A program made the position numbers and the translations under genes. Shown one piece after another: positions 10,870 to 44,246 of a stretch of DNA of 64,000 bases. The notes under the pieces are model-generated. The model did not search any database, was not told where the DNA came from, and saw only the letters and a list, made by a program, of their open reading frames with translations. Every line of letters starts with the position of its first letter. The first letter of the stretch is position 1. The DNA is from Laccaria trichodermophora (lineage: Eukaryota; Basidiomycota; Agaricomycetes; Agaricales; Hydnangiaceae). Location: NCBI GenBank assembly GCA_018417955.1, contig JACTVC010000002.1:248001-312000 (forward strand), read 5' to 3'.

Positions 10870-11499
10870 TCACATCGTCCTCAAAACCCAAACATCCCTC
10901 TCCCCCAAACTCGGCACCAACCCAACCCACCACACCTCCCTCCTCAAAAGCTGCACCGCATACCCCGCATTATACGCCTCCCTCAATCCCTCCGCCACCA
11001 TACTCACCCTTTGATTCACAGCATCCAGAACATCGGATACCATAATGACGGCATCATACCTGTCGGGGGCCGGAAAGACGACGATAGGTCGATGCAAGTC
11101 AAAGTCGAGGAATATAGTCAACGACGCGACGCCGGGCGGATGAACAGCAGCTTCATACCTCCACGCGTCCTGTCCTCGCAGTCGCGAAGGACATTCGGCG
11201 AAAGAGGTGGGTGCTCTGATGTTATATTCAATCCCAGCGACGAGTATAGGGTTAATTTCCACCTCTACAGAATAGAGGGGCGGCAGTGGGATGGGTCGTG
11301 ATCGTGGAAGGGGAGGTGGCACGATTAAGCTTTCGGTAGGGATGGGAGTAGACAGCGAAGCTGAGGATGTCGCGCGTTGTGAGCTCGAGTAAGGATGGAA
11401 AGACCGAGAACTTTGTTCAGACTCGTCACGGTATGAGCCTGAAAGACGTATCCCTTCAGCTCTCGCATCCGTCCCTGATATTGACATTGACATACGCAT
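10870..11499 (-). CDS. DUF6699-like protein, type A (copy A1)
   Basis: Intronless frame of 209 residues with ATG at 11499 and TGA at 10872-10870. A Ser-rich disordered N-terminus leads to VPPPLPRSRPIPLPPL, VEINPILVAGIEYNIRA, SFAECPSR, DAWRYEAAVHP, SLTIFLDFDLHRPIVVFP, VSDVLDAVNQRVS and ends GERDVWVLRTM. The order NPLL-xYD, PA.P..SLTI, VxDVL.A and a final W-xL after a GL motif matches what I know as DUF6699, a basidiomycete family with no known function. Compared with A2 it lacks about 31 residues of the Pro/Ser linker (an in-frame deletion). The start matches A2, where an ATG further upstream seen in A1 is changed. The leader probably holds an intron (GTGAGT...CAACAG). Confidence 0.75.
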   Translation of the reverse strand: MRMSMSISGTDARAEGIRLSGSYRDESEQSSRSFHPYSSSQRATSSASLSTPIPTESLIVPPPLPRSRPIPLPPLYSVEVEINPILVAGIEYNIRAPTSFAECPSRLRGQDAWRYEAAVHPPGVASLTIFLDFDLHRPIVVFPAPDRYDAVIMVSDVLDAVNQRVSMVAEGLREAYNAGYAVQLLRREVWWVGLVPSLGERDVWVLRTM

Positions 11500-12770
11500 A
11501 ACTTCTGATTCCCGATTTCTGATCTTTTTTTTTGGTTTCTGATTTTGATCCCGAGTCTGTTGCAGAAAGGTGAGCCGTAAGTAGACTTCAATTGCCCGAC
11601 AACTAACTCACGATGGAGGAGCTCGCGGATGGTCCTGTCCGCCATTCTGTCTTCCGCTATATATACTTCCAAAGACCCAGCTTAATTAACCTATGTATTA
11701 ACCCTGCAAATCAGTTACGCTCACCACAGCCAGCGTGTGCACAGGACAGGACGCGGGACGGAAGCAAATGGCGGTGCCAGCTATTTATATCCCCCATGAG
11801 ATCAAGATCCTCTCGCGCCCCGCACGTTGAGCGAATTCAAATATTCAGGGCTCGCGCACTATCCTTTGAAAATTCCCCATTGTATCACGTACCAAAAATA
11901 AACCTTTTTTTTGAGTCTCACGCCTCGCAGCACTCCCAATTTTACTCCAAGACCCTCCGTTAATGTTGTTCAGCAAATCGCGCATCTTAGACCAACCAAG
12001 CACCTGTACGTGCCTCTTGGCCCTTGGAAAGCGATTTTTTGTCTGAGATAATTAGCGGGAGAGTATAATCTTCTCAAGCCTTTCCACTGATGGCGGTTGG
12101 ATGGCGGTGCAGCTATACGTGATATCAAGATCCGCGTTAGATGGGCTCGCGAAGCACTTACCCTCGAACCTCTCACACCTCACGTCGGTGGTAGGGTCAC
12201 CTCGGGCCTGCGCTTTGGGATGGCTACACATGAGTCATACTTAGCGTTGAGGATGTCGCCGTGATGTGACAACTCAATCTGGAGAGCTCGCCTGTAAAAT
12301 CACATCTACATCACGTAGTATTACTTATAGCATACAATGTACATGATACAAGAGAGGACACCACCATTGTTGATTTCAACCGTAGTCTGCACGCGGCGAG
12401 CCAGGAAGTGATTCTAGGACGAAGTGCGCATCAAACCGAGGCTTGATGTTCCCCTCTCAATGCAACATTTTCCCCGTGCTCTCCAACAAAAATAAGACGC
12501 TCAGGCATCACAAGAAACTTTTTTTTTTTCATGTCGAAACTTTCATTGTCATCAGCGTCGTCAACAATAAATTATAGATAAATATGTATGCAGTGGGTGT
12601 GAGTATATATGCCGAATGCAATGCAAAGAAAAACCTTTTGGCGACTAGCACCCCCCAATTCCCCAAAATAAATAGTCTGAATAAATAAAACCAGAGACGG
12701 CGCAGCCATCCCGAAAAACGTAGCAGCCTCGAACACACAACTTGAAGACCACCCGACCACCAACCCTCAA
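11500..12770. other. Intergenic between tandem type A genes
   Basis: Holds the A1 promoter and leader (to about 11770), the conserved promoter-distal block to 11930, then unrelated DNA to about 12420, then the 3' flank shared with A1 (12430-12770 matches 10200-10260 plus 10560-10869). Repeat borders indicate that the duplicated unit was gene plus both flanks. No gene seen. Confidence 0.5.
11658..11665 (-). promoter_or_regulatory. TATA box of DUF6699-like A1
   Basis: TATATATA followed on the minus strand by GCGGAAGACA, about 160 nt upstream of the A1 start. The same arrangement occurs at A2. Confidence 0.5.
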
Positions 12771-13505
12771 TCACATCGTCCTCAAAACCCAAACATCCCT
12801 CTCCCCCGAACTCGGCACCAATCCAACCCACCATACCTCCCTCCTCAAAAGCTGCACCGCGTATCCCGCATTATACGCCTCCCTGAGCTCCTCCGCAATC
12901 ATACTCACCCTCTGATTCACAGCATCGAGAACATGGGATACCGTGATGACGGCATCATACCTATTCGCGGGAAAGACGATGATAGGTCGGTGCGGGTCGA
13001 AGTCGAGGAATATAGTCAACGACGCAACAGGTGGGTGAACGGCAGCCTCATACCTCCACGCGTCCCGTCCTCGCGAACTGTGTCGTCGCGAAGGACATTC
13101 GGCGAAAGAGGTGGGTGCTCTAATGTTGTACTCGATCCCCGTGACGAGTATCGGGTTGATCTCCACCTCAATAGCAGAGAGGGGCGGCAGTGGGATGGAT
13201 CGTGATCGTGGAAGGGGAGGTGGTACGATCAGGCTTTCGGTAGGGACAGGAGTAGCTGAGCTGCAGCGGGGTCTGCCAAATGGAGGTCTGTGTATGTGAG
13301 ACGGAGGTCTGAATGCGTTGGGGACGGAAGAGGCCCATGGATTTGGGGTGGTAGATGAGGATGAGGATGAGGGTGTTGCGCGTTGTGAGCTTGAGTAAGG
13401 ATGGAAAGACCGAGAATTTTGTTGGAACTCGTCGCGGAATGAACCTGAAACGCGCATCCATTCAGCTCTCGCCTTTGTCCCTGACGCTGGCGTTGACATA
13501 CGCAT
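12771..13505 (-). CDS. DUF6699-like protein, type A (copy A2)
   Basis: Intronless frame of 244 residues, tandem paralogue of A1 in the same orientation. Signature segments: SFHPYSSSQRAT, a linker PNPWASSVPNAF that A1 has lost, VPPPLPRSRSIPLPPL, VEINPILVTGIEYNIRA, SFAECPSRRHSSRGRDAWRY, SLTIFLDFDPHRPIIVFP, VSHVLDAVNQRVSM, GYAVQLLRREVWWVGLVPSS, GERDVWVLRTM. The C-terminal half is nearly identical to A1, which implies a recent duplication or gene conversion. No signal peptide, no membrane segment, no catalytic motif. Confidence 0.77.
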   Translation of the reverse strand: MRMSTPASGTKARAEWMRVSGSFRDEFQQNSRSFHPYSSSQRATPSSSSSSTTPNPWASSVPNAFRPPSHIHRPPFGRPRCSSATPVPTESLIVPPPLPRSRSIPLPPLSAIEVEINPILVTGIEYNIRAPTSFAECPSRRHSSRGRDAWRYEAAVHPPVASLTIFLDFDPHRPIIVFPANRYDAVITVSHVLDAVNQRVSMIAEELREAYNAGYAVQLLRREVWWVGLVPSSGERDVWVLRTM

Positions 13506-14691: not shown

Positions 14692-15662
14692 TCATACACC
14701 CGTCAACTGCGCAGAATGGTCCCAAACACGTTGTTGCCCATCCGCTGCGTGAGGAAAACCCCAAGATCCAATGTCGTCGCCCTTTGCATTCCTACGGTTC
14801 ATACCCTTCTCAGCATTCAGAAGGGCAAACAACATATATTCTGCGCAATCTTGAGGCTTTGCAGAGATAAGCCACAGGAATGGGCGCAAAGGGAGCATCA
14901 AAATCGTCAAAAGCCAGCTTGAGGGGTAAAGACCAGGCGTATCAACGGTACCGGGAGAGATATGCGTAAAAGCAATCTCTGGTTCCCGTTTAGCGTATTC
15001 CTATAGGTGATTTTGTCAGTTGAGTCGGGGGTGAAAAAAAAAAAGAGACAAACGGCGATCATGTAGTCGTTGTAACTAATCGTTTGCATCATCGCCTTCA
15101 GCGCGGTATACCTCTTCTTCAACCCCAGATCCTCCACATCAACTTCCCAGCCCACGCCAGCGCCCAATATGGTCAGGACACTAGCATCCTCTCCCGCCTC
15201 CTTGGCCTTGCGCAAAGAAGGTAAAAGGTCATGGATGATAGCCCACCTAGAGTAATACCTCGACGCCATCTTCTTATCGATCCCTTCTTGCGTCTCCTCC
15301 CTTCCAGTCAAAGCAAACACACCAGCAGATAATACAAGAAAGTTGATCTTTGGCAATCTCTCCGAGAGCTCTTTGCACGCGGCGTGAACGTTCTTCATCA
15401 ACGTCACATCGCACGCCATGAACTCATACTTGGACCCAGCAGCGTCAGAGGCCATGGGTATAGGGAGACTGGCAATGATGGCGTCTGCCGCTGTCTTGTT
15501 GCGGGCAACAATGACGATGTGAACGCGGCCTTTGAGGTACTCCGCTAGTGTCTCAGTTATAGCTTGGCCGATCCCTGAGGTTCCCCCGAATATCACGGCC
15601 ACTGGGAGATACGATGGACAGTAGCCAGCATTCGAGGTCTTTGCGGCTGCAAGAGTGGGCAT
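14692..15662 (-). CDS. Short-chain dehydrogenase/reductase (SDR), copy 1
   Basis: Exon 1 is 15662-15054, a 53-nt GT-AG intron follows, and exon 2 is 15000-14692 (TGA). The NAD(P)-binding Rossmann motif GGTSGIGQAI (TGxxxGIG type) lies near residue 27. ARN, CDVTLM and VLSAGVFALTG mark the following strands. YTALK fits the YxxxK catalytic pair, with the likely catalytic Ser upstream. Exon 2 gives EPEIAFTHISPGTVDTPGL, the usual PG segment after the active site, then a hydrophobic stretch SSWLLTILMLPLRPFLWLIS. At about 305 residues it is a normal size for a classical SDR. Substrate unknown. It is a tandem paralogue of the gene at 16708, with the same intron position. Confidence 0.85.
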
Positions 15663-16707: not shown

Positions 16708-17679
16708 TTATACAGTGGTCAGCTCTACAGAGTGATCCCAAAGGCGCTGTTGACCATCCGCTGCTTGAGGGAAGCCTTTGGTTCCGATATCGTCACCCTT
16801 CGCGTTCCTACGATTCATGCCCTTCTCGGCATTGAGCAGGGCAAATAACATGTACTCCGCGCAGTCTTCAGGCTTCGTAGAGATAAGCCAGAGAATAGGG
16901 CGCAGAGGCAGCATCAGGATAGTCAAGAGCCAGCTTGACGGACGAAAGGCAGGAGTATCCACGGTACCAGGATAGATATGCGTAAAGGCAATCTCTGGTT
17001 CACGTTTGGCATATTCCTGAAGGCTTTTCCGTCAGTAATATATATGATAGAAAGAGACGAAATGACACACGGCAATCATAAGATCATTGTAACTGATCGT
17101 CTGCGTCATTGCCTTCAACCCGCTATACCCCTTCTTCAAACCCAAATCCTCCAAATCGACCTCCGGGCCCATACCAGCGCCCAAAATGGACAGGACGCTA
17201 GCATCCTCTCCCGCCTCCTTGGCCTTGCGCAAGGAGGGCAGAAGACCATTGATTATGGCCCACCTAGAGTAATACCTCGAAGCCATCTTCTTATCAATTC
17301 CTTCCTCCGTTTCCTCCCTTCCAGTGAAGGCAAACACCCCAGCAGATAGCACAAGAAAGTTGATCTTAGGCAGTCTCTCCGAGAGCTCTCTGCACGCGGC
17401 GTGAACACCCTTCATCAGCGTCACGTCACACGCCATGAACTCGTACTTGGACCCAGGAGCTTCGGAATCAGCGGGTTTGGGAAGACTGGCGATGATGTTG
17501 TCTGCTGCTGCCTTGTTGCGGGCAACGATGACGAGGTGTACTCGGCCTTTGAGGTACTCGGCAAGTGTCTGAGTTATAGCTTGGCCGATCCCTGAGGTTC
17601 CTCCAAATATCACGGCCACTGGGAGATACGACGGACAGTAGCCAGCATTCGAGGTCTTTGCGGCTGCAAGAGTGGGCAT
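16708..17679 (-). CDS. Short-chain dehydrogenase/reductase (SDR), copy 2
   Basis: Start MPTLAAAKTSNAG at ATG 17679, identical to copy 1; an upstream in-frame ATG at 17727 is not shared and was not chosen. Exon 1 17679-17071, intron 54 nt, exon 2 17016-16708. It has GGTSGIGQAI, CDVTLMKGVHAAC, VLSAGVFAFTG, the YSGLK version of YxxxK, and exon 2 with TPAFRPSSWLL and NAEKGMNRRNAKGDDIG. The two copies are alike along the whole length, so both flanks of the active site are kept. Minor alterations in the linker (KPADSEAPGSK against PMASDAAGSK) are neutral-looking. Probably a NAD(P)H-dependent oxidoreductase of secondary or lipid metabolism; not determined. Confidence 0.85.
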
Positions 17680-18621
17680 TATGAGAGGAAGATGTTGGTT
17701 CAGTGATGTCACGCTTGGTCTGTGCATTGTGTAATGTCACATCACGTTTTGCCTTTAGAAACGTGTTGAACCAACGTTGAACAACCTGGACACATGAAAA
17801 AGCTTAGACGAAAAGCCTGGCCCTCTGCTAGCTAGTCTATACATCGCTTTTTTCACTGATTTTTGTATGTTGCGTAAGCTCGACTAAGCGTAGCTCTCGA
17901 AAAAATAAAGGCAAACTCATTGCAAACTCATGCCATTCATGAACTTGTAACAATTTATACTAAATTATAGTCTTGATTGCAAGGAGGTTATAAAAGCCTA
18001 TTCGATTATGCATTCTGCGGAAGGCTAGTCTCACAACGTATCGAGTCGTATCTGTGTACTGTACACTGTTCATAAGGGTGCCGTGAGTCGTGTCTCGTAT
18101 AGAAATTGTCTATGTCAGAGTATTAACTGTACAAGAGTAGGTGGAGGAAGATGAAGGGGAAGAATAGGAGCGAGGTGATAAGAATAACGAAAAGTCCATA
18201 CCACGGCAATGCATGATAACACATTTGGCGGTATGGTAACGGGACGGTGCTCGTAACAGCACCGTTTCCAAAGACAGCAAGGTCTGATGCCAAAGAGGAC
18301 ACGTATGTGCGGTACATAGCGTGCCGCTTAGCGGGTATAGGTCCACGGGGGGTACATTCGTCGCGCAAGGTCAAATCCATTGGGTCAGGGTCGAATCCAG
18401 CAGAAAAGCGAAGAGAAAAGATTCTTCATAGATGGACGAGAGCGAGATGAAGCCTTCGATACATATGGGTAATGATCGCCGCCGTCGAAGGACGGTTGGG
18501 GATAGATTGCCGGAGCGAAGGGAGGAGGAGCCGGAGGTGCATAAACTTGAGATTGTTCACCGGTGCTAACAGGGTGCCTCGAATCGTAACGATAACCAGA
18601 ACTCGAGGGGAGGTTCGCAGG
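17680..18621. other. Intergenic
   Basis: AT-rich 17850-18010, then about 600 nt of 3' flank of the next minus-strand gene. No gene recognised. Confidence 0.35.
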
Positions 18622-19317
18622 TCATGTAACGCTGAGCCGCCACACGTCTGGTCCACGGCTTGTCGTAGCCAATCCCCAGAACTTCGTCTTTCCCATGAGG
18701 AAATCAACGCGTTTCATCCCTCCGCGTTTCTCCTGTTCGTATGCTTGGCTGTTGTGGTGCCTGCGGTATCGCTGCTCGTATGCCCGAGTAGCTTTGCGCC
18801 CGTCATGTGAGCTGAGCGAGCTGAACTCGGCAGATGTAATGTTCTTCTGCAGTGCACGGTACACGCTGTCCAGCACATCTCCAAAGGTGACATAAGAGCG
18901 GTTGGACGCGGGGACACTGATAGTCCATGGCAAGTGTTCAAAGATGATGCTCAGTTTCCTGAGCGGAGGAGATGAAGCTGGTTCCGCGAACACGCGGCTG
19001 GAGATGCGATGGTGGTGATGATCATGAACATAGGATGGGTGATCCATGAGATCATAATTGATAGCCGGAGCGGATGATAATTCAAGGTACAGATGGATGC
19101 GCACCCGGGCCGGTGACTTAGAGGGATATGGTGCCAAGGCTTGTTTGTTGGAGTAAGAAACGATGTATGGCGACGGACCCGGAAGGGATTGGTATAGATT
19201 GGGAGGCGTTAACACTGCCGCTGAAGAGGCGGGAGAGAGTTCATTGTAGGATAATGCAGGAGTGGGAGGGGCGTGAACCGTGGTGGTTCGAGAGAACCTG
19301 ACGTGTTTGCCTGGCAT
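18622..19317 (-). CDS. DUF6699-like protein, type B (copy B1)
   Basis: Intronless, 231 residues. The start MPGKHVRFSRTTTVHAPPTP is shared with B4 (MPGKHVHF). Core: APAINYDLMDHPSY, FAEPASSPPLRKLSIIFEHL, PWTISVPASN, SYVTFGDVLDSVYRALQKNI, YEQRYRRHHN, MKRVDFLMGKTKFWGLATTS, ending GPDVWRLSVT. These match the DUF6699 hallmarks as I know them: PA.PP..L.I...PW.I.V, VTVGDVL..IY.AL, RVDFL.G...F.GL and GPDVW.L. No signal peptide or membrane span; probably intracellular. The reaction or partner is unknown for the family. Confidence 0.85.
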   Translation of the reverse strand: MPGKHVRFSRTTTVHAPPTPALSYNELSPASSAAVLTPPNLYQSLPGPSPYIVSYSNKQALAPYPSKSPARVRIHLYLELSSAPAINYDLMDHPSYVHDHHHHRISSRVFAEPASSPPLRKLSIIFEHLPWTISVPASNRSYVTFGDVLDSVYRALQKNITSAEFSSLSSHDGRKATRAYEQRYRRHHNSQAYEQEKRGGMKRVDFLMGKTKFWGLATTSRGPDVWRLSVT

Positions 19318-19415
19318 TGGGTAGTCAAATAGAGTGTGTTATCAAAAGAGTTGGGGTGTCGATAAATAAGCTCGAAAGAAGGTAGGGAATATCGTTTCCA
19401 CGTCCACTGTACGCG

Positions 19416-19422
19416 TTATATA
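19416..19422 (-). promoter_or_regulatory. TATA box of DUF6699-like B1
   Basis: TATATAA on the minus strand, about 100 nt upstream of the B1 start codon, within GATGTCTATATAACGCG. Confidence 0.5.
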
Positions 19423-23018: not shown

Positions 23019-23168
23019 CCACGAGGAAGAGGATCGTGGTGGGTTGTAATAACGAAGGCTCCGTAATGCTGGCTGGGTGGCGAAAACATGGGACGAAGGG
23101 GGGGAAGAAGTACGATCATGATCGAACAACACCACGAGGACGGGTGCCGGGCAACTCAAGCATCCGCC

Positions 23169-29540: not shown

Positions 29541-29905
29541 ATTCTTTTCTGGCAAAATGCAACGGAAATCGGAGGGATTTGCTCAGATGGTGTATGGCTA
29601 ACTTCCTCGGCAAGGACCGCGCACCTGCGCACCGGTTTCATACGGCTAGATACCGCAGTTAACTAGTCATGCCATATCATACCATATCCCACTCCTTACA
29701 TTTTTCCTTCCGGTGTACGGGTTGGACAGATGAAACCACATACAAGCCAAGATTTTCGATGAGGGATCCGCTTTTGCTCGCTGCGCAAAGCGCTCGAGTT
29801 TGCGTCTCCGATATGTCACGCATGCTGCGAAGAGGAAATATATCAATAAAGAGAAGCTATAGAGAAGAAGCACAAAACAGTGCGAGCGAGAATTGCATCA
29901 AGAAG

Positions 29906-31341: not shown

Positions 31342-33500
31342 GAAACCCGTCCTGCGGACAGACGCTTTGCAAACTTACATATACCCGGTCATCCAATATA
31401 CCCGTATCTGATATTACCCCAAATTATAAATGTCTTATTGAGCCTACGTAGCGTTGGACTAATGTATATGATTCGTTGATTTGAGAACCAACTGCATATT
31501 GAACCGGGACATGTTAGACCTTGGGCCTCAGGGTTAGGTCCTAGTAAGAGGGTGGACGTGGTCAGTCGAGGACCCGCTGCCGAACACTGACCGACCTTAT
31601 TGGTCACCTGAAATTTACTCGCGCTAACCTTTAGATTCACTGACGGAAAAATCACGAAATTTCAGTGTTATTCCGGTTGGCGTGGATTAATGTAACGGTT
31701 CGATCCAACCGTAGTATCCAAGTAGTATCCAAGTACTAGTATCCATGAAAATTACGCTCGCCGTCATCTGCGTGAATCAACGTGCTCTACAACACACACG
31801 CATGGGTTGACACTATTAGATCTCTAGTCCGGTCAAGAATCTCAAGACCGCATTTCTCTCATCTTTGCGCTAAACGAATATTAAATATCACCGGGTCAAA
31901 GATAGAATGAACGAATCTGCGGCTTGCCACGTGTCGATGTTAGCTCTCCGAGAATCCGCCAAACAAAGCCTAAATTATCGATTTATCGATTGGCGGTCCC
32001 CCGAGTGAAAGTACGCGTTGACAGTGTTGGCTTCTCGAAATATGTCAAAAAGCCGTATGGAATTGACGACGGCGGTGGAATGGCCATTTCTTCGTTAGAT
32101 CCCTGCTTGCTCTTTGAACTTGAAACTTGAAGCACTCGACCCTCGGCGCTCATCGTATTCATCTTATCTCAAGTCCATCTTCCAAAAACATGTGTTCCAG
32201 ATTGGCCCTTCCTCGGCTGTCGTATCACGGGACATTGTAATCTAGTTGCAGAAAAGAAGAGGGTGTCTGCGCCTCGCCTTGGAGAGCGGAACGGGGACAT
32301 TGGGTACGTTAGCCGTCAGTTCCAAAGTTGAATCCAAACATTTATTTAGTCGTTTGACAAACTGTAACCCCTGTCAGCTTTGTGAGGTGGCGCGAGGCAG
32401 TCTAGCCTCGAGTAACAGGACTTAGGGCTCCTTAACCCCCAGTGGCTGGGTTTCGCCGAACTCCTGGATCAAACGAGTGGATGTCATTGAATGCTAGATG
32501 AACTCAGATTGATCATTTTAGTTTTAGACCAGGCGTATAAGGTTTTCCATAAAGCCTCCGTTTTTCCTCAATGTACGCTAACTACCATGGTCTGTCGTTG
32601 GCGATCTCGAAGCTCTAGTACCCTTTGTAAAAATCGAATTTGCTCTTCCTGAAGCTTCCCCCAACTGGGCTACCTAAACTTTTACTCTTATCAAATCGCC
32701 ACGGGCGCTTGTCGTCAAGGCACTCAGGCCTGCAGGTAGGCAGCCAGCCTATTACCCCAAATATCTTCACCTCACTAAACCAATTTAGGTTCCGAAATAA
32801 TGATGACCATCGGCCATCCAACCATTTGAAGAAGTGTCTCTCCTTCGCAGTGGTGCGGCGATTCAGCAGCTAACCCCATCAAGACATTACGTAGTCAACT
32901 TCAGTTGATTTCGGCCTTGACCTTTGGATGAGAATATATCATCTCGTAAATCGTTACGTGCTTCCGAAAATCCCCTTCCTTTCGCCTCTGACTTATGCCC
33001 CACTACTTTCTTGTGCTCATCCCATCTGCGTTTTACCTGAAGATAATACCTCACCGCAAGGTACAGTAGTACCGACAAATTTTCTTCGTTCCCTCTCGCT
33101 CTCGCTTATACAACATAGATGAAATGGATATATACACCTCGTCGTGTAACAAGACTCAGCCTTGTCCGATTATTTGATGCTGACCGCTGATGTCGTAGTT
33201 TCCCATTTCCGGGTTGACCTGTCCTGTGAGCGCTTCAACGTTCAGACGTACTCCTTCTTACCTTCACCACCGGTACCAGACTGCGCTTCTGGATAGGCCC
33301 TTGGCGGTGAGGGCTTTCGTTCAACACATGGGCGCTGAGCTAATTTATGTTTTTCAGTATGGTGATCGTCGAGTGCAGTATCCTGTAAGAAATAGTTTTC
33401 CCTGCCGTGAAGAGATCTGACTTGGAATATACATCAATTTATGCTCAGTTCTCGGTGGGTTTTTTTTAACGGCTCTTCCTTCATGTCTTTAACTTAGTAA
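31342..33500. other. Intergenic; left edge of the segmental duplication near 32950
   Basis: A short direct repeat GTAGTATCCAA lies at about 31710-31745. Minus and plus frames around 32615-33120 show no motif. From about 32950 the DNA is similar to DNA from about 38180 (for example CCGAAAATCCCCTTCCTT, GGAATGGA-ATATAC, GCTGAGCTAATT). Confidence 0.4.
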
Positions 33501-33501
33501 A

Positions 33502-34041
33502 AATAAGCCGCCATGCCTGAAACGCGTTCAATGTATTCCCCTTCCGTCAGATTCACATCAGTTGCCCTCAGTGCCTACTCTATTCCCCCTCATCATTACA
33601 CTCCCGCTCCACTCAGAAACGGCCTTAAGACTTTCATCCATTGCTATTTCCGCAAACTCAATTCATATTCACGATACCACCTCACACATCGGGGATATTT
33701 GCACTCCTGGCGGAGCTCATTCCGCCTTGGATATCGTAAATGCCGTCAGCAATCTTGCTCGTCAAAATATCTCTCTCTCGACCTTCCATCAATTGTCTAA
33801 CCCAGTGAAAGAGCGGGTCGAACATTGCTTCAAGACTAGATATTTTCGAGACGAGAGGGGCGTAAGTGCGAACGGAGTTTGGGCCACATTCTTGGACGGT
33901 CAGCAAACCATCACAGGTCCGAAAGGTGTGGATTTGCTGCTAGGGAACATTTGCATTTGGGGGCTTGAATTTTGCTCAATCTCTGGTCATTGGATTTTGC
34001 ATGTTGCGGATCCATCGGTTGCATACTTCGAGCCATCCTAG
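33502..34041 (+). CDS. DUF6699-like protein, type C (copy C1), start unresolved
   Basis: The core frame reads SSIAISANSIHIHDTTSHIG, SALDIVNAVSNLARQNISLS, FHQLSNPVKERVEHCFKTRY, GPKGVDLLLGNICIWGLEF, then HWILHVADPS. This follows the DUF6699 plan (GDVL-like helix, long helix ending in RY, RVDFLLG..F.GL, W.L.V) although PA.PP is missing. The frame continues upstream without stop to 33502 and includes VQCIPLPSD, which resembles RCIPLPQL of the type A genes. There is no ATG in this frame; the ATGs at 33513 and 33531 lie in another frame. An acceptor-like TTAACTTAG precedes it, so a 5' exon is likely, or the gene is damaged. C2 shows the same arrangement. Confidence 0.5.
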   Translation, partial: NKPPCLKRVQCIPLPSDSHQLPSVPTLFPLIITLPLHSETALRLSSIAISANSIHIHDTTSHIGDICTPGGAHSALDIVNAVSNLARQNISLSTFHQLSNPVKERVEHCFKTRYFRDERGVSANGVWATFLDGQQTITGPKGVDLLLGNICIWGLEFCSISGHWILHVADPSVAYFEPS

Positions 34042-35108
34042 ATAATTTTCGCTTATTGGTCCTAAGAATCAGAAATATTTGTATCATTCATGTGATTTTT
34101 TTCGTGGAGTATCTCGCATGATTATTTGGTTTTCGATTCACTTGCACAGAAATGAGAGGAGCATTATCGAAAAATATCCGCCAATATTGATCCTGCGTCC
34201 CTAAACACCATCGCGGCGTATGGCAAAACCCGCCCTTGAGAATAGATTTATCCATTATGTACCAGGTTTCATCGGGCACATGGTGTAGTTGGTTATCACG
34301 CTCGCTTAGCATCTGAGATTCAGAATCATGCGAGAGGTGCTGGGTTCAATTCCCAGTGTGTCCACCTTTTTCGACCTCTTTTGTCGCTTCAACCGTTATT
34401 AGGGGGATGATCTTTGGTGACAGGATTTGTAGGATATTCCTCTCGTTTGTTTATTGGATGTTGGAAGATGTGTCGTGTTGCCGTCAATGTTGATTAGTTA
34501 ACAGTTACGCAAAATGGCAAAAGGTTATTTCTATCACTCAAGTGAGGTTAGTTCCTCATTGCAACGTCTCAATCACTTTTTCCATAGCTAAGTAATTATC
34601 GAATTGAGTCGCTGAGAGCAGAAAAACGGCGGGTATGTTCGGTGGTTTCTACTTACGCCTTGCCATCCGTTCTTCGTATACAACATATGCAACCATCCCC
34701 TTTAAAGCTTTATCACTCACTCAAATCTGTTCTCTTCCATGCGTCTTAGTACTAGTCTACTTGTTGCACGTAAATCTCGAGAATATATATGTATAATTTG
34801 CTCTCTTAGGTTTCTTTGACCGTCTTTCCGTCACTGACAGGTTCGGGTAACATGACCGGAAATCGAATTTTTGGCATAAGCGATGCCATCAAGCCGGAAG
34901 CGCTGCTTCTCAGTGAGGGACGACCCTTCAAGCTTCAAGTTCGCGTATTTCATCCAAGCCACTCACCTGTTATCACTTCCCCACTCTGCCGCTCTACTCC
35001 CCAACCCCGCTGCAGTCACGACTCGCGTTGGACTTAGGGTATGAGATTCGTCCACACTGCAGACACGATGCTGACTGAGCTTCTTCAGATACCACATTAG
35101 CTCAAACC
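34042..35108. other. Interval holding tRNA-Ala and the shared upstream region of D
   Basis: Apart from the tRNA (34274-34364), 34840-35100 is homologous to 40010-40310 upstream of D2. No protein gene supported. Confidence 0.4.
34274..34364 (+). tRNA. tRNA-Ala (AGC) with a 17-nt intron
   Basis: Acceptor stem GGGCACA pairs with TGTGTCC (one G-U) and discriminator A at 34364. D arm TGGTGTAGTTGGTTATCAC. Anticodon stem CTCGC (34301-34305) pairs with GCGAG (34330-34334). The anticodon is AGC (34308-34310), with the intron at 34312-34328, the canonical position one base 3' of the anticodon. T arm GGTGCTGGGTTCAATTCCCAG. A T5 pol III terminator follows at 34367. Internal A and B boxes are present. 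Confidence 0.93.
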
Positions 35109-35612
35109 GTGTCTCACCCGCCTCCACGTACACAGCGACACCAAAAGGCCGAGGTGTGGTACACCTCCACGCAGCACTACCCCCCACCACCCATATCACC
35201 ACCGACTCGCATCTCTGCCCGTGGTCTCTTCATTCTACGCCCCCGGTGCCGTGAAGCACTGGAGCGATCTCTGGACGAGCAGACAACCACCCTACATGCT
35301 GCTCGCCCAGTTTCCCAAAATCTGTGATCGCGTTATCAAGAAACGCTCAGCACCCCTTCGTGACTGTTCGAGACGAAGTTCTCTCCGCAGCGCACGACTC
35401 AATCCGCGTCTTCGCCATCGAGTTTCACCATTCGCCTCCCACATCTAAGCTTTGGGGCTCTCCGACAGGGTGCAGACTCGCCAGACTCAAACAGCCGTTT
35501 CCAACGCGCACGCTCGCAGACTCATAATGGAGTTCTTTCCTGGCGGTTCAATTTGAGCTGGAGTGTCACCCAGTCAGGTTGAGCCTGACATTTAGGTTCT
35601 TCATGCAGATGA
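35109..35612 (+). pseudogene. DUF6699-like type D pseudogene (copy D1)
   Basis: Aligned by eye with the intact D2 at 40317. The start codon is GTG instead of ATG (35109-35111). About 170 bp of the middle, between GTCTCTTCA and CGCGAAGC-like sequence, is deleted. Several 1-2 base indels shift the frame, so surviving family fragments such as GDEVL-like and SIRVFAIEFHHSPP are in different frames. The D2 ending DVWIVHVR corresponds to GACATTTAG, a stop. A decayed duplicate. Confidence 0.85.
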
Positions 35613-37118
35613 GCCAATGACATTTCATAATCGCATCTTTCGGCGTGAGCGCTCACACAAGCTTCTCGCTTTCCTCAGTGTGGCGGACCGTGTTATGAGC
35701 GATTGACATGATGCTGTCACACATTCTATGCCATCTGCTAGATACATATCCGGACATTCGGGGCACTCAGTAGATCTGTAATGGTGTTGGTTGACAACTT
35801 GACAACAAGTCCACAAGCTTGATACGTACCAATTTAGCAGTCCTTCTTCGAGTCATCTCAAGAATGTATAAATATCCAAGAAACTGAGTGCAAAGTGAAG
35901 AGGGGAATCAGAACAACGAAATCGTTTGAGCAAGGAGGGAAAAGCGCATACATGATCAATACATGATACAAAAACAAAAACAAAGTAATCATCAACATCA
36001 GCCAAATATGACATAACATTGGTTCATCGTCACCTGAAAGCTACGTCCCGAATCTACGCCCGGAAAATTGACCGAAAGTCACAGCTCCATTTCCTATCCC
36101 ATTTTCCGACTGACAATGCATGGAGCCCCCTGTCAACACCGTGTTGTAGGATGGCTCCTCATAACTTGATGTGCAAGGTTAGTGCAAGGGCCCAACTGGG
36201 GGGGTATTCGTCGGACATCGCTGAGGGCGCAAACCTTTTATTGATGACGTCATTTGTCAATGGCACCATGGCGATAATCGCATCGACGCCGCCGTAAGCC
36301 ATTGATATTGAACATTTACAACCCGCTCTGCACGGGTGGACATATGCGCTCCCTAACCCGAAACTCTAGACAAGAGACCGGCGCAGCAAGCATGATTTTA
36401 TTCCTCATATCAACGTGTGCGGACTTGTCATGATTTTTGGTAGACGGTTTGAATACCCGTAAGTCTACCACAGATCCTGCCCATCCTCGCTCTACTGAAA
36501 GCTTCATCAGTTGCAAAGTTTCTCGAAGCTTGTGTTTCCCGCTGCAATTTGAATGGTGTAAGGCGTCAAAAAAACATTTGTCGACCAGTACAAAACACAG
36601 ATAAGGCCATATTGGCGCGCTTCATCCAGATCGTCAGACGCCACGATGCCTTTCAGTGGCTAGACTGGAGCGTGGCGTTTCAGCTGCCACGCGATTGTTT
36701 TCTCCAATTTCGGTGACAGCGTGGGGCAAGGTTTTGGTCACGACTCACCACTCACTGGGGTTCTCCTGTTGAGACCCGGCCGATGGGAATTTTGCAACGT
36801 CAGGAAGTCTAGAACTAGTATTTTTTCCTACCCGCTTGAGCCGTCATCGTGGACAGGGCTCTATTTCCATTTTTGCTTTGAACTGTGGGCAAGCGCCGAG
36901 CCCATGACCCTCAACTCCATTATCTCCGGCATATGAAGCCCTGCCTGCGTTGTTCACGGGTAAGCGTATTTGCGTCACGACGTACTTGTATGTAAACCCC
37001 AAGATATTACGCCCTATTAAACTGAGCCCGGTTGCAACAATAGGTTGAACATGAGCCTACGTTGTGAGTCTTCGAATCATCTAGATACTTAACGTGCTGA
37101 CTCCATGACAGAAGCGAT
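35613..37118. other. Intergenic part of duplication unit 1
   Basis: Homologous in patches to 41013-43559 but without the inserted element found there. A block at 36241-36272 is nearly identical to 42577-42608 (contains TGACGTCA). The 36720-37120 region parallels 43140-43559. Confidence 0.45.
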
Positions 37119-37592
37119 ATGTCGATCTTTGCATTAGGATTGGAAACTCGTCGGGGACGTCACGTTCACGTCCACTCCAGCGCACTGGCAGGCAATGTAT
37201 TCTCCTCCCACAACTCACGTACTTCGAGATGCAGATAAACCCTTTGCTGTGGCAGTTCACCCTATCGTCCTTTCCTTGACAATTTATCTCGATCTCGATC
37301 CCCACCGACCAATCATCGTTTTTCCCACCCACAGACCCTCTCCCTTCACTTTGGGTCCTATCCCCGACATCCACATTGTTTCATGTCTACTCCCGCGCAA
37401 GCAATGTATTCCCCTCCCACAACTCTCGTTTCGAGATGCAGATAAAGCCTTTGCTGCGGCAGTTGACCCTACCGTCCCGTCCTTGACAATTTATCTTGAT
37501 CTCCATCCCCACCGACCAATCGTCGTTTTTCCCACCACAACAACTACGATGCATCTATTACCATATGTGACGTCCTGCTGTCGACCGTAGTA
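37119..37592 (+). pseudogene. DUF6699-like type A pseudogene with internal deletion and tandem duplication (copy A4)
   Basis: It begins like A3 (GAAGCGATATG at 37113 and 43554). Relative to A3, about 100 bp between CCTTTGCT and GGCAGTTCACCC is missing, removing the NPLL-GI-YNIRA region and shifting the frame. The damaged segment then occurs twice, 37192-37330 and 37401-37539, both with the same deletion junction. Readable remains: two copies of SLTIYLDL-PHRPI-VFP and IPDIHIV. It ends before the GLVPS...DVWVLRT part. Confidence 0.85.
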
Positions 37593-38702
37593 GGCTGACT
37601 TTATGTTCTCAAAACAATTATTCTAGGTTCAAATGAGCTTAGCCTACAATGTGTCGAAAGTACGGTGAACTATTCAAATATTTTTCTGGCCAGCGGCGCA
37701 CAGCACAGGGAGAAAAAGTGGAAAGTAATCCCAATTGGGGTGCTAATCCTCCTGATTGGGTGGGTGTTCAAATGTGTTCCAGCCTTCCAGACATTGGCTT
37801 TCGTTTCTAAATCGAGGCTGATCTCATCAAGCTGGCCTTGGGGTTGGATTCGTTTACGGCTTTGGCAAAGGATTTGTTTTGGCAACCCGGCAATCAAAAT
37901 TAGTCTTTTCTCGGTACCTAGGACATACAATACCTTCGGTAAGGTCCGTTCGATAAGTGAATAATTCTACGTGCTGAAGACGCGACTCGGGATATCACGG
38001 TTTCAAAGAGAAGCATGCGCGTATCGGCGATTAGAATCGACACCATCATTAAATAAAATACTATGAGACTACAATGCATATGTTCCGCTTGGGTATATTT
38101 AGATAACTTGATATCTCGATTCCACCGCCGATACTAGGTCGACTCGACACTATATCGCCTTGCCAAAGTTACATCCTCCCGAAAATCCCCTTCCTTCCTC
38201 CTCTGACTTTTTCCACACTACGTTATCCCACCTATGTTTTGCTTGAAGACAATTCCTCACTGCAAGGTACTGTAAACTGACCGCTTATCTTCGCTCTCTC
38301 CCGCCTCCGCTGATATGACATAGATGGAATGGACATATACGCCTCGCCATGTACTCAGTCAGACTTATCTCATTATTTGATGCTGACCGCTAAAATCGTA
38401 GTTTCCCATTACTGGTCTAACCTGCCCAGTGGGTGCTTCAACACTCATATAGTACATCTTCTTATCTTCCCACTAGGCTGCGCTTCAGGATAAGCCCTTG
38501 GCGGTACGGCCTTTCATTCGACACATGGGAGCTGAGCTAATTCACGGTGAACAGCCCGGTGATCATAAAGTGCACTATCCTGTATGAAATAAATTTTCTT
38601 GTTGTGAAGAGGTCTGACTTGAAGCATACTTATATTAATTTATCATTAGTACTCGGTGCGTTTTTTTGACAACTCAGACTTCGTATTCTGAACTTTAGTA
38701 AC
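37593..38702. other. Intergenic between duplication units
   Basis: 37660-37960 has a plus-strand frame with a hydrophobic run but no family match. Unit 2 homology to 32950 onward starts near 38180. No gene supported. Confidence 0.4.
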
Positions 38703-39272
38703 AATAAGCCTCCACATCTGGGACCCGTTCAATGCATTCCCCTTCCGTCCGAGTCGGACCTACATCCGTCACCTTCTCCCGGGCCACCACCTGTGCTCTT
38801 CCCCCTCATCGTCACCCTCCCGCTTCAACCAGAGACGATCTTGAAGCTTTCATCTGTCGCTATTTCCGCGAATTCAATTCATATCCATGATACCACCTCG
38901 CACATCGGGGATATTTTCGCACCTGGGGGAACTTATTCCGCCTTAGACGTCGTAAACTTCGTCGGCTATCGTGCTCGTCAAGATATCTCCCTCTCAATGT
39001 TCCATGCATTGTCTGACCAACTCAAAGAACGAGTTGAACTTGCCTTTAGGAATAGATATTTTCGAGAGGGGAGGGGAGACAGTGCGAACAGGTTTTGGGA
39101 CATGTTCTTGGACGGTCAGCAAACCATCACAAGTCCGAAAGGTGTAGATTTGCTGCTAGGGAACATCTGCATTTGGGGGCTGGATTTTTGCCCAATCTCT
39201 GGTCATTGGATTTTGCATGTTGCGGATCCATCGGTTGCATACTCCAAGCCATCCCGAATGATTTTTACTTGA
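38703..39272 (+). CDS. DUF6699-like protein, type C (copy C2), start unresolved
   Basis: Paralogue of C1. Core: SSVAISANSIHIHDTTSHIG, SALDVVNFVGYRARQDISLS, FHALSDQLKERVELAFRNRY, FLDGQQTITSPKGVDLLLG, NICIWGLDFCPISGHWILHV. The frame is open upstream to 38703 through VQCIPLPSESDLHPSPSPGP; the only nearby ATG is in another frame and that frame stops at 38890 or so. Because the core is kept open in both C1 and C2 while most differences are conservative, the core frame seems to be selected, with a start in an unseen upstream exon. About 7 codons longer in the linker than C1. Confidence 0.5.
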   Translation, partial: NKPPHLGPVQCIPLPSESDLHPSPSPGPPPVLFPLIVTLPLQPETILKLSSVAISANSIHIHDTTSHIGDIFAPGGTYSALDVVNFVGYRARQDISLSMFHALSDQLKERVELAFRNRYFREGRGDSANRFWDMFLDGQQTITSPKGVDLLLGNICIWGLDFCPISGHWILHVADPSVAYSKPSRMIFT

Positions 39273-40316
39273 TGGTACAAAGGATACTTGTACGACTTGG
39301 GTTATTTTGATTTAGATATCCGCGTATTCCATATGTATGTTTGTTAGCGCCAGCGTGTGAACGCACAGAACTCAAGAGTCAGACACAACGTGTAATGATG
39401 ACTGATATTGTTTAACTACCTGTGAACACATGGAACTAAATACAGGTAGCAATCAGTAAAGGTAGAGTAAGAACATGTAAAGTAAGCTCACCTCAGAGTC
39501 AGACACAAAGTGTAACGACGACTGAGGTGAAGGGAAAAAAAGTTTGCATATAAAAAGAAATGGGGAACCAAAGACTGGTAAAGTAAGAATAAAGACTCTT
39601 TCTCTCTCTCTTTTACTTCCGTTATTTACCAGAGGAAGTGAACAAATAAAGCGTACGCGTAAACAACGTGGTCACGAGACGTCTCCTTTGACACAGCGGT
39701 GCTAGCAAGAGTTGAACATTGAGCAGTTGGGTGCAGTGAACTAATAAGCCAACCCCACGGCGGCCAACAACGGGAAACATTGAAAGACTGATAGTAACCG
39801 CCGGGGTGGCTGCGGGCGCCATTTATACTTTGTCCGCTGTAGGAATTTACTTTCAGGCAACTTTCAGGCTGCGGCTGCGCATGCTATCCCGCCATAAATT
39901 ATTCATTAGAGAAAGGTCATTGAGAGAAGAGGACAGACTGTTGCAAATTTTCATGAAGTTGGAAAAAAAATAATACATGTGAACGTCCAGCCTTAAATTT
40001 GCATCCTTTCAGGTCATGCATGTTCTGCTAACGTGACCGGAAGTCGGATCCTAGCAAGTGTTGTGCACTATTTTGGGAAAACAAATATGGCACGGTACAA
40101 CCAAATGACTCCGTCGAGCCGGGGCGCTACTTAAGGGAGACCCTTCAGGTTCACGTATGCATCCAAGCCTCTTACCACTTATTACTTCCCCACTATACCT
40201 CTCTACTCTCCAAAACCACTGCATAGTCGCGACCCACAGGTATGAGATTTGCCCATATTGCAGACACTGAACCTAAAGTTGCTTGACACCCTCCAGCTAC
40301 CGCATCAGCTCGAACC
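39273..40316. other. Insertion-like block in unit 2, LTR-like features
   Basis: 39342-39707 begins TGTTAGCGCC and ends GGTGCTAGCA (imperfect inverted ends, TG...CA). It contains a duplicated word AGAGTCAGACACAA (39372 and 39497), a polypyrimidine run CTCTTTCTCTCTCTCTTTTA and TATAAAAAG. Unit 1 has the tRNA gene instead at the matching place. This would suit a solo LTR, but flanking 5-bp target duplications do not match, so it stays tentative. 40010-40316 is the D2 upstream region. Confidence 0.3.
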
Positions 40317-41012
40317 ATGTCTGGTTACTCACCCTCCTCCACGTACACAGCGACACCGCAAGGTCGTGGTGTGATACACCTCCAGGCAACATTACCCCCC
40401 ACCACCTCCACCACCCACGTCGCCACCGGCCCGCATCTCTCCCCATTGTCTCTTCACTCCCCTGACCCACCCTCCCTGCTCTATAGCAAATCGCCCTATA
40501 CGTCCATCCATCTTCCACGTTTGCACAATGGCCCAGTTCTTATCAACCCCCTTTTGGAGTACTTGCCAGTACCCATGATCGAGTACGATGTCACTCTGCC
40601 AGCAACGTTCGCAACACTGAACTCCCGGCGCCGCGAAGCTCTGGATCGATCTCTGGACGAGCCGGCAACCAGCCCCGCCACGAGCTCTTTGACACTTTGC
40701 TCACCCTGCTTCCCAAAGCCACTGATCGCGTTTCCAAGAAACGCACAGTACCCGTTCGTGACTGTTAGAGATGTTCTCGCAGCAGTGCACGACGCAATCC
40801 GCGTCTTCGCCATCGAGTTACACCATCCGCCTCCCACGTATAACCTTTGGGGCTCTCCGATAGGAAGGGTACAGACTCACCAGAGTCAAGCAGCAATTTC
40901 TGACGCGCACGTTCGCCAACTCATAATGGAGTTCTTGCCTGGCGGTTCGACTTGGGGTGGCATCTCACCCAGTCCCACTGAGCCTGACGTTTGGATTGTT
41001 CATGTCAGATGA
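40317..41012 (+). CDS. DUF6699-like protein, type D (copy D2)
   Basis: Intronless, 231 residues, ATG 40317, TGA 41010-41012. A Thr/Ser/Pro-rich N-terminus is followed by YTSIHLPRL, VLINPLLEYLPVPMIEYDVT, RSLDEPATSPATSSLTLCSP, YPFVTVRDVLAAVHDAIRVF, then a long linker with WGSPIGRVQTH, LIMEFLPGGSTWGGISPS and the ending EPDVWIVHVR. The NPLLEY...YDV, EPAT.P..SLT, VTV.DVL.A and PDVW.V landmarks place it in the DUF6699-like group. The RVDFLLG motif is not recognisable. It is the intact partner of pseudogene D1. Confidence 0.75.
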   Translation: MSGYSPSSTYTATPQGRGVIHLQATLPPTTSTTHVATGPHLSPLSLHSPDPPSLLYSKSPYTSIHLPRLHNGPVLINPLLEYLPVPMIEYDVTLPATFATLNSRRREALDRSLDEPATSPATSSLTLCSPCFPKPLIAFPRNAQYPFVTVRDVLAAVHDAIRVFAIELHHPPPTYNLWGSPIGRVQTHQSQAAISDAHVRQLIMEFLPGGSTWGGISPSPTEPDVWIVHVR

Positions 41013-41462
41013 GGCAATGACATGTCGTAATCGCATCTTTCGGCGTGAGCGCTCACAGAAGCTTTCTCACTTTCCTCAATGTGGCGGACTGTCCTTATGA
41101 GCGATGGACATGATGCTGTCGCACATTTTATACCATGTGCTAGGTACATATCATCCGGACATTCGGGGCACTCAGGGCGACAGAATATAGCAGAATATCT
41201 GTAATGGTGTTGGATCATGATTCATATGACAACAAGGCCAGAGGCTTGATACGTACCACTTTACCAGTACTTTTTCGAGTAATCTCAAGAATTTATAAAT
41301 ATCGAAGGAAACGAGTGCAAAGCGAAGGGGGTCAGAATAATGAAGTCATTCACAGCGGTTGAGCGAGGAAGGAAAAACAAAACAAAGTGATGGTTGTCGA
41401 TTGGTTGTCGATCAACAACATCAGCCAAATATGACACAACATTGGTGCAGATCCAAGACGTA
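41013..41462. other. D2 3' flank up to the transposon insertion site
   Basis: Homologous to 35613-36020 downstream of D1 (shared CGCATCTTTCGGCGTGAGCG, CATCAGCCAAATATGACA). No gene. Confidence 0.5.
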
Positions 41463-42131
41463 CAGTTGCGGACAAGCAAAGTCATCTAAAAATGTTAACT
41501 TTTTTTTAAAGCCCCGAAAATAGTCGGAATCGACGCAGATTCACGAGAGCTTTCCAGCCATACCACTTTCATCAAATTCTATCGAGCCGATCCCTCAGAA
41601 ATCGCCAAAATAAGGTTTTTCTGCCTCAAAATATTGGCGGACCCTGAATTTCACCCAAAAATCATGAAAAATAGTGGAATCGACTCCTTTTGATGAAAGG
41701 GTTATGATCCCATAAAAATTAGCAACTTTTATCGATCCATTTCGGGTAAATAAATTCATTGATAGTTACCAAAAATGGTAATTGATTAGTGATCAACCAT
41801 ATTTAGTCTCCGCTCGGACCCCTCCAGAGTCCCTGATCTGTGGTCAGTCTTGTTAGAATTTCTGTGACTTTTTGTTAGATGGTACCTATCACTACCGAGA
41901 ATTTTACCCCACAACCAATGAGATTTGAGTAGTTTTGGTCATCAAGGACCCTGAATTGAGGCAAAAAATTGGTCCAAAAATTTGGCGGACCCAATTTCTC
42001 GTGGGAAAAACTTCGGAGGTGTGTTTTTCGACGTATTTCAACAAGCTGGCCATGATCCCGAAGTTTGGTGCCATTTTATCCAGCCGTTCCCGCGCTACCA
42101 AATTAGATGACTTTGCTTGTCCGCAACTGTA
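41461..42131. mobile_element. Non-autonomous Tc1/mariner-like element (MITE-like), with TA target-site duplication
   Basis: The element proper is 41463-42129 (667 bp). Its left end begins CAGTTGCGGACAAGCAAAGT and its right end is the exact reverse complement over the outer 27 bp (41463-41489 and 42103-42129). Both ends are flanked by TA (41461-41462 and 42130-42131). A TA duplication with CAGT at the tips is typical of Tc1/mariner-group transposons. The interior is AT-rich with poly-A and poly-T runs, partly repeated internally (TTGGCGGACCC near 41632 and 41982), and has no transposase-sized frame, so it would depend on an enzyme encoded elsewhere. Unit 1 of the segmental duplication has no counterpart, so insertion followed the duplication. 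Confidence 0.85.
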
Positions 42132-43559
42132 GCTTTCACAATGCAGGGTGCACTTGATAACATACTCGAAATTAACCGGAATCCAAAGCACCTTTTGAGA
42201 AGCTCCACGACCACTTGATCATCCATTTTCCGGTTTCTTCCGACTCATCAGCATCGAGCGCTGAGTTGGCGCTGAGCCCTCTGTCGTCAATTTTGTTTTC
42301 GGACATCTGCTCCGAGTCGGCCCATGCCAGTGGGACCCGGGAACCCATTTATGATATTGAAGCATCCAAGACATCAGGTATGATCTCCAATGGATGGAAA
42401 TGAGCCGATATCGGGTGGCTTCAATGGCACCACAACTCATTGAACGGTGGTACAAACTTCAAATGCCTTATCCAGGCCAACAGAATCGCCGTTCCCATTG
42501 GCAACTTACCCCCATATAGGCCTCACTGGCGAAGAGGGGGTAGTTGTTCGTTGGACCTCGAGGCTGAAAACCTAGTATGATGACGTCATTTGTCAATGGC
42601 ACCATGACGATAATCGCATTGACGTCGTCGTACGCGCGTAAGCCGTTCACAACCCGCTCTACACGGGTGGAACCAATATTCTCTACGCAGTCCGAAACTC
42701 TGGACAAGAATTGTCCGCAGCAAGCAGGTTTTTGCTCCTCATATCAGACACGTGCGGACTTGTTGTGATTTTTTTGTAGAAGGGGTTCGAATATTCGTAA
42801 GTCTATCCATATTTTTGCTCCTCACCGCTCTAATAAGGGCCCTCTTCAGTTTCAGTCAGCCGATTTTCCCGAACCTTGCGTCTCCCGCTGGAATTTGGAT
42901 GGCTCTAAGGGCCCAGAAATATACACTGGTTGACCTTCCTTCCGGAGTACAAAGCACAGACAGGATAAATTTGCTTGCTTCGCTCAAGGCTGCGTGATCT
43001 AACGGTTGCTGTACACAGGCTGAGCACAGAGTGCTGAGCGTCTAACTAAGCGCCGTCCAATCAGATCGTCAGATGCCACGGCGACACTGGAGCAAACGTG
43101 GTGGCATTACAGCTGCCAGAATTGGTTCTCCAGTTCCGAAAACGCAGCATGGGCAATGTTTTGGTGTCACGCACCGGGGTTCTCCTACGTCCGATAGGAT
43201 TTTGGAAAGTCAGGGAAGCCTAAAACAAGTATTACTTCTCAGCCCTCTCCAGCAACAGGACCTTATCTATTTTGGCTTGTTAACTCATCCTCAGCAATGC
43301 AGTGTAGGCATGCGCCGAGCCCACACCCTCAACTACATGCATTCCACTATCTCCGACCTATGCAGCCCTGGCTGTGTTAAGCATAGGTGAGCCTAATTCG
43401 CGTCACAGGTTGCTTGACATACTGGTATATAAGCCTCAAGGACCTTTCGGAACTCGACATGTTACGCCTTTAGCTGAGCCCTAGGCTGAACATGAGATAA
43501 CGTTGTGAGTTATCTGAGCATTCAGATTCTAAACGCGCTCACCCCTTGACAGAAGCGAT
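42130..43559. other. Intergenic part of duplication unit 2
   Basis: 42577-42608 matches 36241-36272 nearly perfectly (with TGACGTCA at 42581-42588). Minus-strand frames here read NAIIVMVPLTNDVIILGF and in unit 1 DAIIAMVPLTNDVI, a possible relic of a minus-strand exon. 43140-43559 is the A3 upstream region, shared with A4. Confidence 0.4.
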
Positions 43560-44246
43560 ATGCCAATCCGTGCATTACGACCGGACGCAAGGATTGACCA
43601 AACACGTCGCAAGCGTTATGCTGCCCCAAGCCGAAATCTCCATCCCCTTCTACCACGCGTAACACCCCCCTCATCTACGTTCACGACACCCCATCCCTCT
43701 TTTGTACGACAATTTATGGCGCTCCCAACGACTTCCAGTGCAACACCCTTTCCCTTCAGTCTACGTCCTATTCCAGACATACATATCGTCCCACCTCCAC
43801 TCCCGGGCAGGCGATGTATCCCCCTTCCACAACTTTCATCTGTCGAGATCCAGATCAACCCTTTGCTCGTCAACGGAATCGATTACAATATCAGAGCCCG
43901 AACATCATTCGCCGCTTGCCCTTCCCGACGTCATAGCTCACGGGGGAGAGACGCGTGGAGATATGAGCCGGCAGTTCACCCTACCGTCCCGTCCTTGACA
44001 ATCTATCTTGATTTCGATCCCGACAGACCAATCGTTGTTTTCCCCACCCACAACAATTATGATACATCTACCACAATAGGCGACGTCCTGGCTGCTGTCA
44101 ACCGTAGGGTGACAGCGATTGGGGACGAACTCCAGCAGGCTTACTATGCTGGCTACTCAGTACGACTTCTTCCCGATGAAGTGTGCTGGTCAGGGCTGGT
44201 CCCAAGCTCCACAGAGCGCGACGTTTGGGTTTTGCGAACAGATTGA
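43560..44246 (+). CDS. DUF6699-like protein, type A (copy A3)
   Basis: Intronless, 228 residues from MPIRALRPDARIDQTRRKRY. Core: IPDIHIVPPPLPGRRCIPLP, VEIQINPLLVNGIDYNIRA, CPSRRHSSRGRDAWRYEPAV, PTVPSLTIYLDFDPDRPIVV, TTIGDVLAAVNRRVTAIGDE, YSVRLLPDEVCWSGLVPSS, ERDVWVLRTD. It matches A1 and A2 block for block, although it is 30 kb away and on the opposite strand. It is the intact partner of pseudogene A4. No signal peptide or membrane segment. Confidence 0.8.
   Translation: MPIRALRPDARIDQTRRKRYAAPSRNLHPLLPRVTPPSSTFTTPHPSFVRQFMALPTTSSATPFPFSLRPIPDIHIVPPPLPGRRCIPLPQLSSVEIQINPLLVNGIDYNIRARTSFAACPSRRHSSRGRDAWRYEPAVHPTVPSLTIYLDFDPDRPIVVFPTHNNYDTSTTIGDVLAAVNRRVTAIGDELQQAYYAGYSVRLLPDEVCWSGLVPSSTERDVWVLRTD

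Follow-up and report, generated by a model that had tools for sequence, protein, structure and literature searches.

The window analysed here is a stretch of 64,000 nucleotides of Laccaria trichodermophora (C12:248001-312000, C12 being the 4.78-Mb contig JACTVC010000002.1 in a genome of 59.0 Mb and 77 contigs), and it carries a tandem cluster of genes of the family DUF6699 (PF20415), which is presumably also labelled IPR046522. Pfam describes PF20415 as a family of unknown function, and a literature search found no paper naming DUF6699, PF20415 or IPR046522. The genes fall into four types, A to D. The N-terminal tails of type B carry a conserved RVxF motif, the kind of motif through which regulators of protein phosphatase 1 (PP1) dock, and as far as the protein sequences can tell, this tail offers DUF6699 a functional lead that is new and easy to test.

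Genes of the cluster and their family membership

The features, in window positions, are as follows; SDR stands for short-chain dehydrogenase/reductase.

10870..11499, minus strand: A1, DUF6699 type A, 209 amino acids (Pfam 26.9 bits)
12771..13505, minus strand: A2, DUF6699 type A, 244 amino acids, tandem copy of A1 (Pfam 32.4 bits; 83% DNA identity over 738 columns)
14907..15662, minus strand: SDR dehydrogenase exon, copy 1 (adh_short 45.1 bits)
17032..17727, minus strand: SDR dehydrogenase exon, copy 2, tandem duplicate (adh_short 45.8 bits; 82% DNA identity to copy 1)
18622..19317, minus strand: B1, DUF6699 type B, 231 amino acids (Pfam 121.2 bits)
19294..19308, minus strand: KHVRF, putative PP1-docking RVxF motif of B1 (amino acids 4-8)
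23169..23876, minus strand: B2, DUF6699 type B (Pfam 100.4 bits; frame open to 24137)
23853..23867, minus strand: KRVQF motif of B2
27335..28057, minus strand: B3, DUF6699 type B, 240 amino acids (Pfam 89.8 bits)
28022..28036, minus strand: RSVRF motif of B3
30712..31341, plus strand: B4, DUF6699 type B, 209 amino acids (Pfam 107.3 bits)
30721..30735, plus strand: KHVHF motif of B4
32953..37590, plus strand: block 1 (C1-D1-A4), decayed C-D-A copy (blastn against block 2)
33502..34038, plus strand: C1, remote DUF6699 frame, no in-frame start codon (hhalign to type B jointly with C2)
35114..35604, plus strand: D1, relic of D2, pieces in three frames with stops (tblastn with D2)
37138..37590, plus strand: A4, type A relic with internal duplication (tblastn with A3; self-match 37165-37329/37380-37536)
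38168..44246, plus strand: block 2 (C2-D2-A3), kept C-D-A copy (matched to 44107, extended to the end of A3)
38700..39269, plus strand: C2, remote DUF6699 frame (74% amino acid identity to C1)
40317..41012, plus strand: D2, DUF6699 type D, 231 amino acids (Pfam 50.7 bits)
43560..44246, plus strand: A3, DUF6699 type A, 228 amino acids (Pfam 28.6 bits)

The start of B2 was set at MINKRVQF, residue 1 of B1 aligning at 23876. All twelve loci that a first-pass annotation had catalogued between 10870 and 44246 are present, namely eight intact genes above the gathering cut-off of PF20415 (24.1 bits), the remote C1 and C2, and the relics D1 and A4. Its assignment of all of them to one family also holds: types A, B and D exceed the cut-off in the hidden Markov model search, although the model of 131 positions is covered only in part by type A (positions 1-72 or 1-73) and by D2 (1-94), while C1 and C2 join by profile comparison. 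Its description of the frames as intronless fits types A, B and D; in C1 and C2 no in-frame start codon precedes the conserved part, so an upstream exon is likely for both.

C1 and C2 have no PF20415 match and are not Pfam members of DUF6699. A profile of these two sequences nevertheless aligns with the type B profile over 92 columns in the second half of the domain (hhalign probability 96.5, score 64.7); among 40 column shuffles the best reached a score of 19.7 and a probability of 1.6. The type A profile aligns with type B over 129 columns (probability 98.0, score 89.7; best of 40 shuffles 19.8, probability 1.2), and other column choices gave probabilities of 94.4 and 97.0 in the C and A comparisons. 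Judged by these profiles, C1 and C2 are remote homologues of DUF6699 type B; the only matches of the C2 protein in its own genome are C2 itself and C1.

In the whole genome the PF20415 search gave 32 matches, 11 of which fall in C12:163780-292117, the window holding 7 and the stretch to its left 4. A1 makes a twelfth place; it was not in the genome search, and was found by protein search and lies above the Pfam cut-off as a whole protein, which brings the family places of the genome to 33. From 32 matches in 59.0 Mb, about 0.02 would be expected by chance per 33 kb, and 7 were seen, or 8 with A1. The extent of 33 kb first given for the cluster is thus correct for the twelve loci and too small for the whole, which with the four further members spans about 128 kb. 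These four (C12:163780, 184169, 196907 and 201435) fall outside the clade of the window genes, and three of them make one clade (100/99), in a tree of 58 rows (32 own-genome copies and 26 of 236 homologues) that was rooted at the midpoint and in which many forks lack resolution. Since the window sits within one 4.78-Mb contig, the suspicion that the cluster is an assembly collapse of unlinked contigs is unlikely to be right, as judged from the assembled contig. Three further DUF6699 genes, relatives of types A and D, form a second small cluster at C56:645082-656713; two of them were placed in the tree, C56:653822 being left untranslated.

The conserved motif in type B tails

B1 is 42-86% identical to at least 120 homologues. 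From 146 type B homologues found, the best 120 were used and combined with B1-B4 into 124 proteins, and the motif was counted in the 112 with a tail of at least 45 amino acids, 12 with a shorter tail or none being left out. Two RVxF consensus patterns, following those printed in parts of PMC3792071 and PMC4794898, were applied, a loose one, [RK]x0-1[VI]{P}[FW], and a strict one, [HKR][ACHKMNQRSTV]V[CHKNQRST][FW], and each was compared with 300 rounds of shuffling. The loose pattern occurs in 108 of the 112 tails (shuffles: mean 4.9, maximum 12) and the strict pattern in 96 (mean 0.6, maximum 5). Moreover, the core [KRN].[VIG][RHQ]F is found in 105 of the 112; all 105 have V at the third position and K or R at the first, the F being given by the pattern. 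Downstream of the F in these 105 tails follow F, V or Y at +6 (93), H or Y at +7 (94), S at +8 (84) and P at +9 (91), and the linker between motif and domain has a median of 56 residues. The motif is therefore conserved in type B tails, and B1-B4 all keep its strict form though they are mutually only 31-40% identical. In CC1G_07466 of Coprinopsis cinerea, a laboratory mushroom, it reads KKVRF. It falls outside the PF20415 model.

Among the seven own-genome copies of the B clade, the motif stands in the computed tail of five; a sixth, a fused copy, shows KRVRF by direct reading, and in the seventh no start codon precedes the domain. The 25 own-genome copies outside this clade gave no strict match and one loose match, 15 having tails of at least 40 amino acids and 10 having tails of at most 21, which say little. 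No RVxF match was found in the tails of A1, A2, A3 and D2 or in C2.

A structure model of B1 was computed with AlphaFold2 from an alignment of 74 sequences (4 from the window and 70 of the 120 homologues). The predicted local distance difference test (pLDDT) score is 92-98 in the domain, 48-61 in residues 21-70 and 72-80 in residues 1-20, and DSSP assigned to residues 1-20 no strand and no other secondary structure, so that the modelled N-terminal tail appears mostly unstructured. A Foldseek search of the model against the PDB gave no match below an E value of 1.8.

The fused copy lies at contig C1:1879408 (L017:4378-5640), where a GATA_AreA domain (PF08550) is joined in frame to a B1-like DUF6699 domain, with the junction near KGK-VR. 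The donor is a paralogue at contig C1:285319, 76% identical over 142 amino acids, and no protein among the best 120 of the 128 homologues of the fusion carries PF08550 and PF20415 together. We take PF08550 and DUF1752 to be one family. The fusion was considered as a lead to PP1 because DUF1752 also occurs in the PP1 subunit Reg1, according to a passage in PMC12520357. It was dropped as PP1 evidence, since the donor is this paralogue and since, among the relatives listed, two also have the GATA finger PF00320 and several bear the name GATA-binding protein.

Duplication, decay and selection

Comparison of the window with itself showed that the cluster has grown by local duplication. A1 and A2 form a tandem pair (83%), as do the two SDR exons (82%). 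The blocks C1-D1-A4 (32953-37590) and C2-D2-A3 (38168-44107) are collinear, matching in six blastn pieces of 66-84% and one 39-base piece of 92%; they arose by tandem duplication of a single block, whose first copy has lost D and A to decay while the second was kept. The tandem DUF6699 cluster is thus real, old and turning over, although a fungal tandem cluster as such is an ordinary kind of observation. The proposal of birth-and-death evolution with kept and decaying copies is borne out by the A1/A2 pair and by the doubled, half-decayed C-D-A block. That this evolution was local applies to the same two cases and does not extend to the B genes, for B1 does not join B2-B4 in the tree but homologues from other genera of the Agaricales (99/95), which speaks against a local burst.

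Types A and D make one clade (100/98) on a long branch, nested in a wider group to which the B genes also belong (92/98 with the root at the midpoint). For type A, 19 homologues were matched, and the 3 that are named are all from Laccaria; A2 is 81% identical to a Laccaria amethystina protein, and the relic A4 is 89% identical over 37 amino acids to LACBIDRAFT_327949 of Laccaria bicolor. The latter and LACBIDRAFT_327940, both listed as predicted proteins, are type A relatives. LACBIDRAFT_327949 also has two copies of the segment doubled in A4, so that the inner duplication of A4 is probably older than the split from the L. bicolor line.

The ratio of nonsynonymous to synonymous substitution (dN/dS), taken as a simple Nei-Gojobori (NG86) count over whole genes, is 0.22 for A1/A2 and 0.36 for C1/C2, which shows purifying selection on these two recent pairs and goes against the diversifying selection proposed at first. 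Off frame, C1/C2 gives 1.10 and 1.11, and the C-terminal half of C gives 0.54. The pieces of the relic D1 give 0.41, 0.91 and 0.52 against D2, on 44-58 codons; since even a relic yields such values, the survival of an open C frame does not by itself say much for C1 being a live gene.

The SDR exon pair (14907-17727) lies between A2 and B1, inside the cluster, and has a dN/dS of 0.155. Between B3 and B4 stands a tandem DNA repeat (28855-29541), whose two units, each about 330-350 bases long, match at 79%. To the right of the cluster are exons of an ABC transporter (50364-53000) and of an amino-acid permease (60532-60945), and 55718-56052 matches its own reverse complement at 67% over 354 columns.

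Proposed PP1 docking and its alternatives

The type B DUF6699 proteins are predicted to be PP1-targeting subunits, and we put this at an even balance. The N-terminal tail, mostly unstructured, would insert as a plug into PP1's RVxF groove by means of [K/R]xV[R/H/Q]F, the hydrophobic or aromatic pair that follows a gap of five residues (+6/+7) could use the adjoining phi-phi pocket, and the Ser-Pro behind this pair could act as a control site, while the folded DUF6699 domain might hold a substrate or a cellular location. Types A, C and D would then be copies that have lost the plug. A PP1 catalytic gene is present at C12:1328387, with the stretches SAPNYC, EFFAKR and LCSFQ, of which EFFAKR and LCSFQ presumably line the RVxF groove; a second type 1 phosphatase, which we take to be Ppz-like, lies at C12:2526585. 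For the groove of Glc7, F256 and F292 are cited in a passage of PMC12520357. As stated in the relevant part of PMC10731240, PP1 regulators use short motifs within extended segments to dock far from the active site, and a degenerate phi-phi pair, for example HV or HH, is tolerated.

Several observations weigh against PP1 docking. Four of the 112 tails lack the loose pattern (two read QLVRF, with Q at the basic position, and two start downstream of the motif), and 2 of the 108 loose matches rest only on RAINF. B1 and B2 also match the pattern with KRVDF, which sits within the folded domain and is unlikely to serve as a docking tail there. Because the type B homologues share descent, the 108 are not independent, and the shuffles ignore kinship; by chance, the first RVxF consensus arises in about 25% of proteins, as a passage of PMC4794898 puts it. 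The main doubt comes from the model of B1, in which residues 1-20 score above the rest of the tail and could therefore pack on the protein's own domain. This leads to a different explanation, in which the segment docks another partner or is an edge strand folding onto its own domain, and DUF6699 has nothing to do with PP1. The pLDDT of 72-80 agrees with it, as does the conservation running past the RVxF core (A-Y-K-N-T-F-H-S-P); on the other side, DSSP finds no strand there, 96 of 112 tails agree with the strict PP1 pattern, and the 12 of 124 proteins with a tail below 45 amino acids or none keep the domain, though some of them are fragments or short gene models. We consider this explanation rather unlikely.

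As for the clustering, tandem copies of an ordinary family may have turned over here neutrally or under the influence of dosage, without any special function in this location, a reading that would be compatible with PP1 docking by type B and that we regard as a serious possibility short of probable. The nearby SDR genes were duplicated as well and have diverged about as much (82%, where the best-matching pieces have 77-83%), so the whole region is prone to duplication. Against pure neutrality stands the constraint on the reading frame, which is seen in A1/A2 and in the in-frame and off-frame values of C1/C2, the latter point being weakened by the values of the relic D1. The locus had also been read as one of recognition, incompatibility or defence under diversifying selection. 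Copy turnover, the long branch of types A and D, the restriction of the named type A matches to Laccaria and the metacaspase-like genes inside and to the left of the extended cluster are in its favour. The low dN/dS of the two recent pairs and the spread of B1 relatives over many genera oppose it, and no STE3 or KN homeobox match was found on contig C12 in the genome search, STE3 matches lying on contigs C1, C9, C17, C22 and C36 and KN homeobox matches on contigs C1, C2 and C29, so that a mating role is not supported either. A HET-domain search, which had no positive control, gave no match. Altogether, a recognition locus seems quite improbable.

The metacaspase neighbours reported to the left of the cluster are real as metacaspase-like genes. 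The frame 8432-9190 lies inside the extended cluster and is just above the Pfam metacaspase cut-off (21.9 against 21.4, a 34-residue match); another match, C12:150442-151252, lies about 13 kb to the left of the extended cluster. As for the metacaspase matches listed for the other contigs, each either lies over 500 kb away from the remaining DUF6699 matches or shares no contig with them. A piece related to the gene region of 8432-9190 occurs at 2305-2373, and an array of STE3 pheromone-receptor matches at C9:582204-605268 is the likely B mating-type region.

To return to PP1 docking, a wider and more tentative proposal is that the type B proteins of the Agaricales form an unrecognised multi-copy PP1-targeting family, for whose domain no relative of known structure was detected, and that plug-less A, C and D copies, which may compete for the same targets, increase in number in the Laccaria line. 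The conserved motif offers a cheap and decisive test of DUF6699 function. If the prediction is true, a mushroom family would be linked to PP1 signalling and DUF6699 would gain its first testable function, while the half-decayed block and the plug-less paralogues would show the gain and loss of regulatory subunits.

Among known systems, the nearest are the PP1 subunits of the RVxF kind. It has been reported in parts of PMC3792071 that LAP1B binds PP1 via REVRF, and in parts of PMC6506691 that RVxF is required by several yeast PP1 subunits. LAP1B, Reg1 and Ref2 are known regulatory subunits of PP1, whereas for type B this role is predicted. As far as the excerpts describe them, LAP1B (REVRF) and yeast Reg1 (RHIHF) and Ref2 share with the type B tails a short motif, basic-x-V-x-F, within a segment that looks flexible, followed downstream by a hydrophobic pair.

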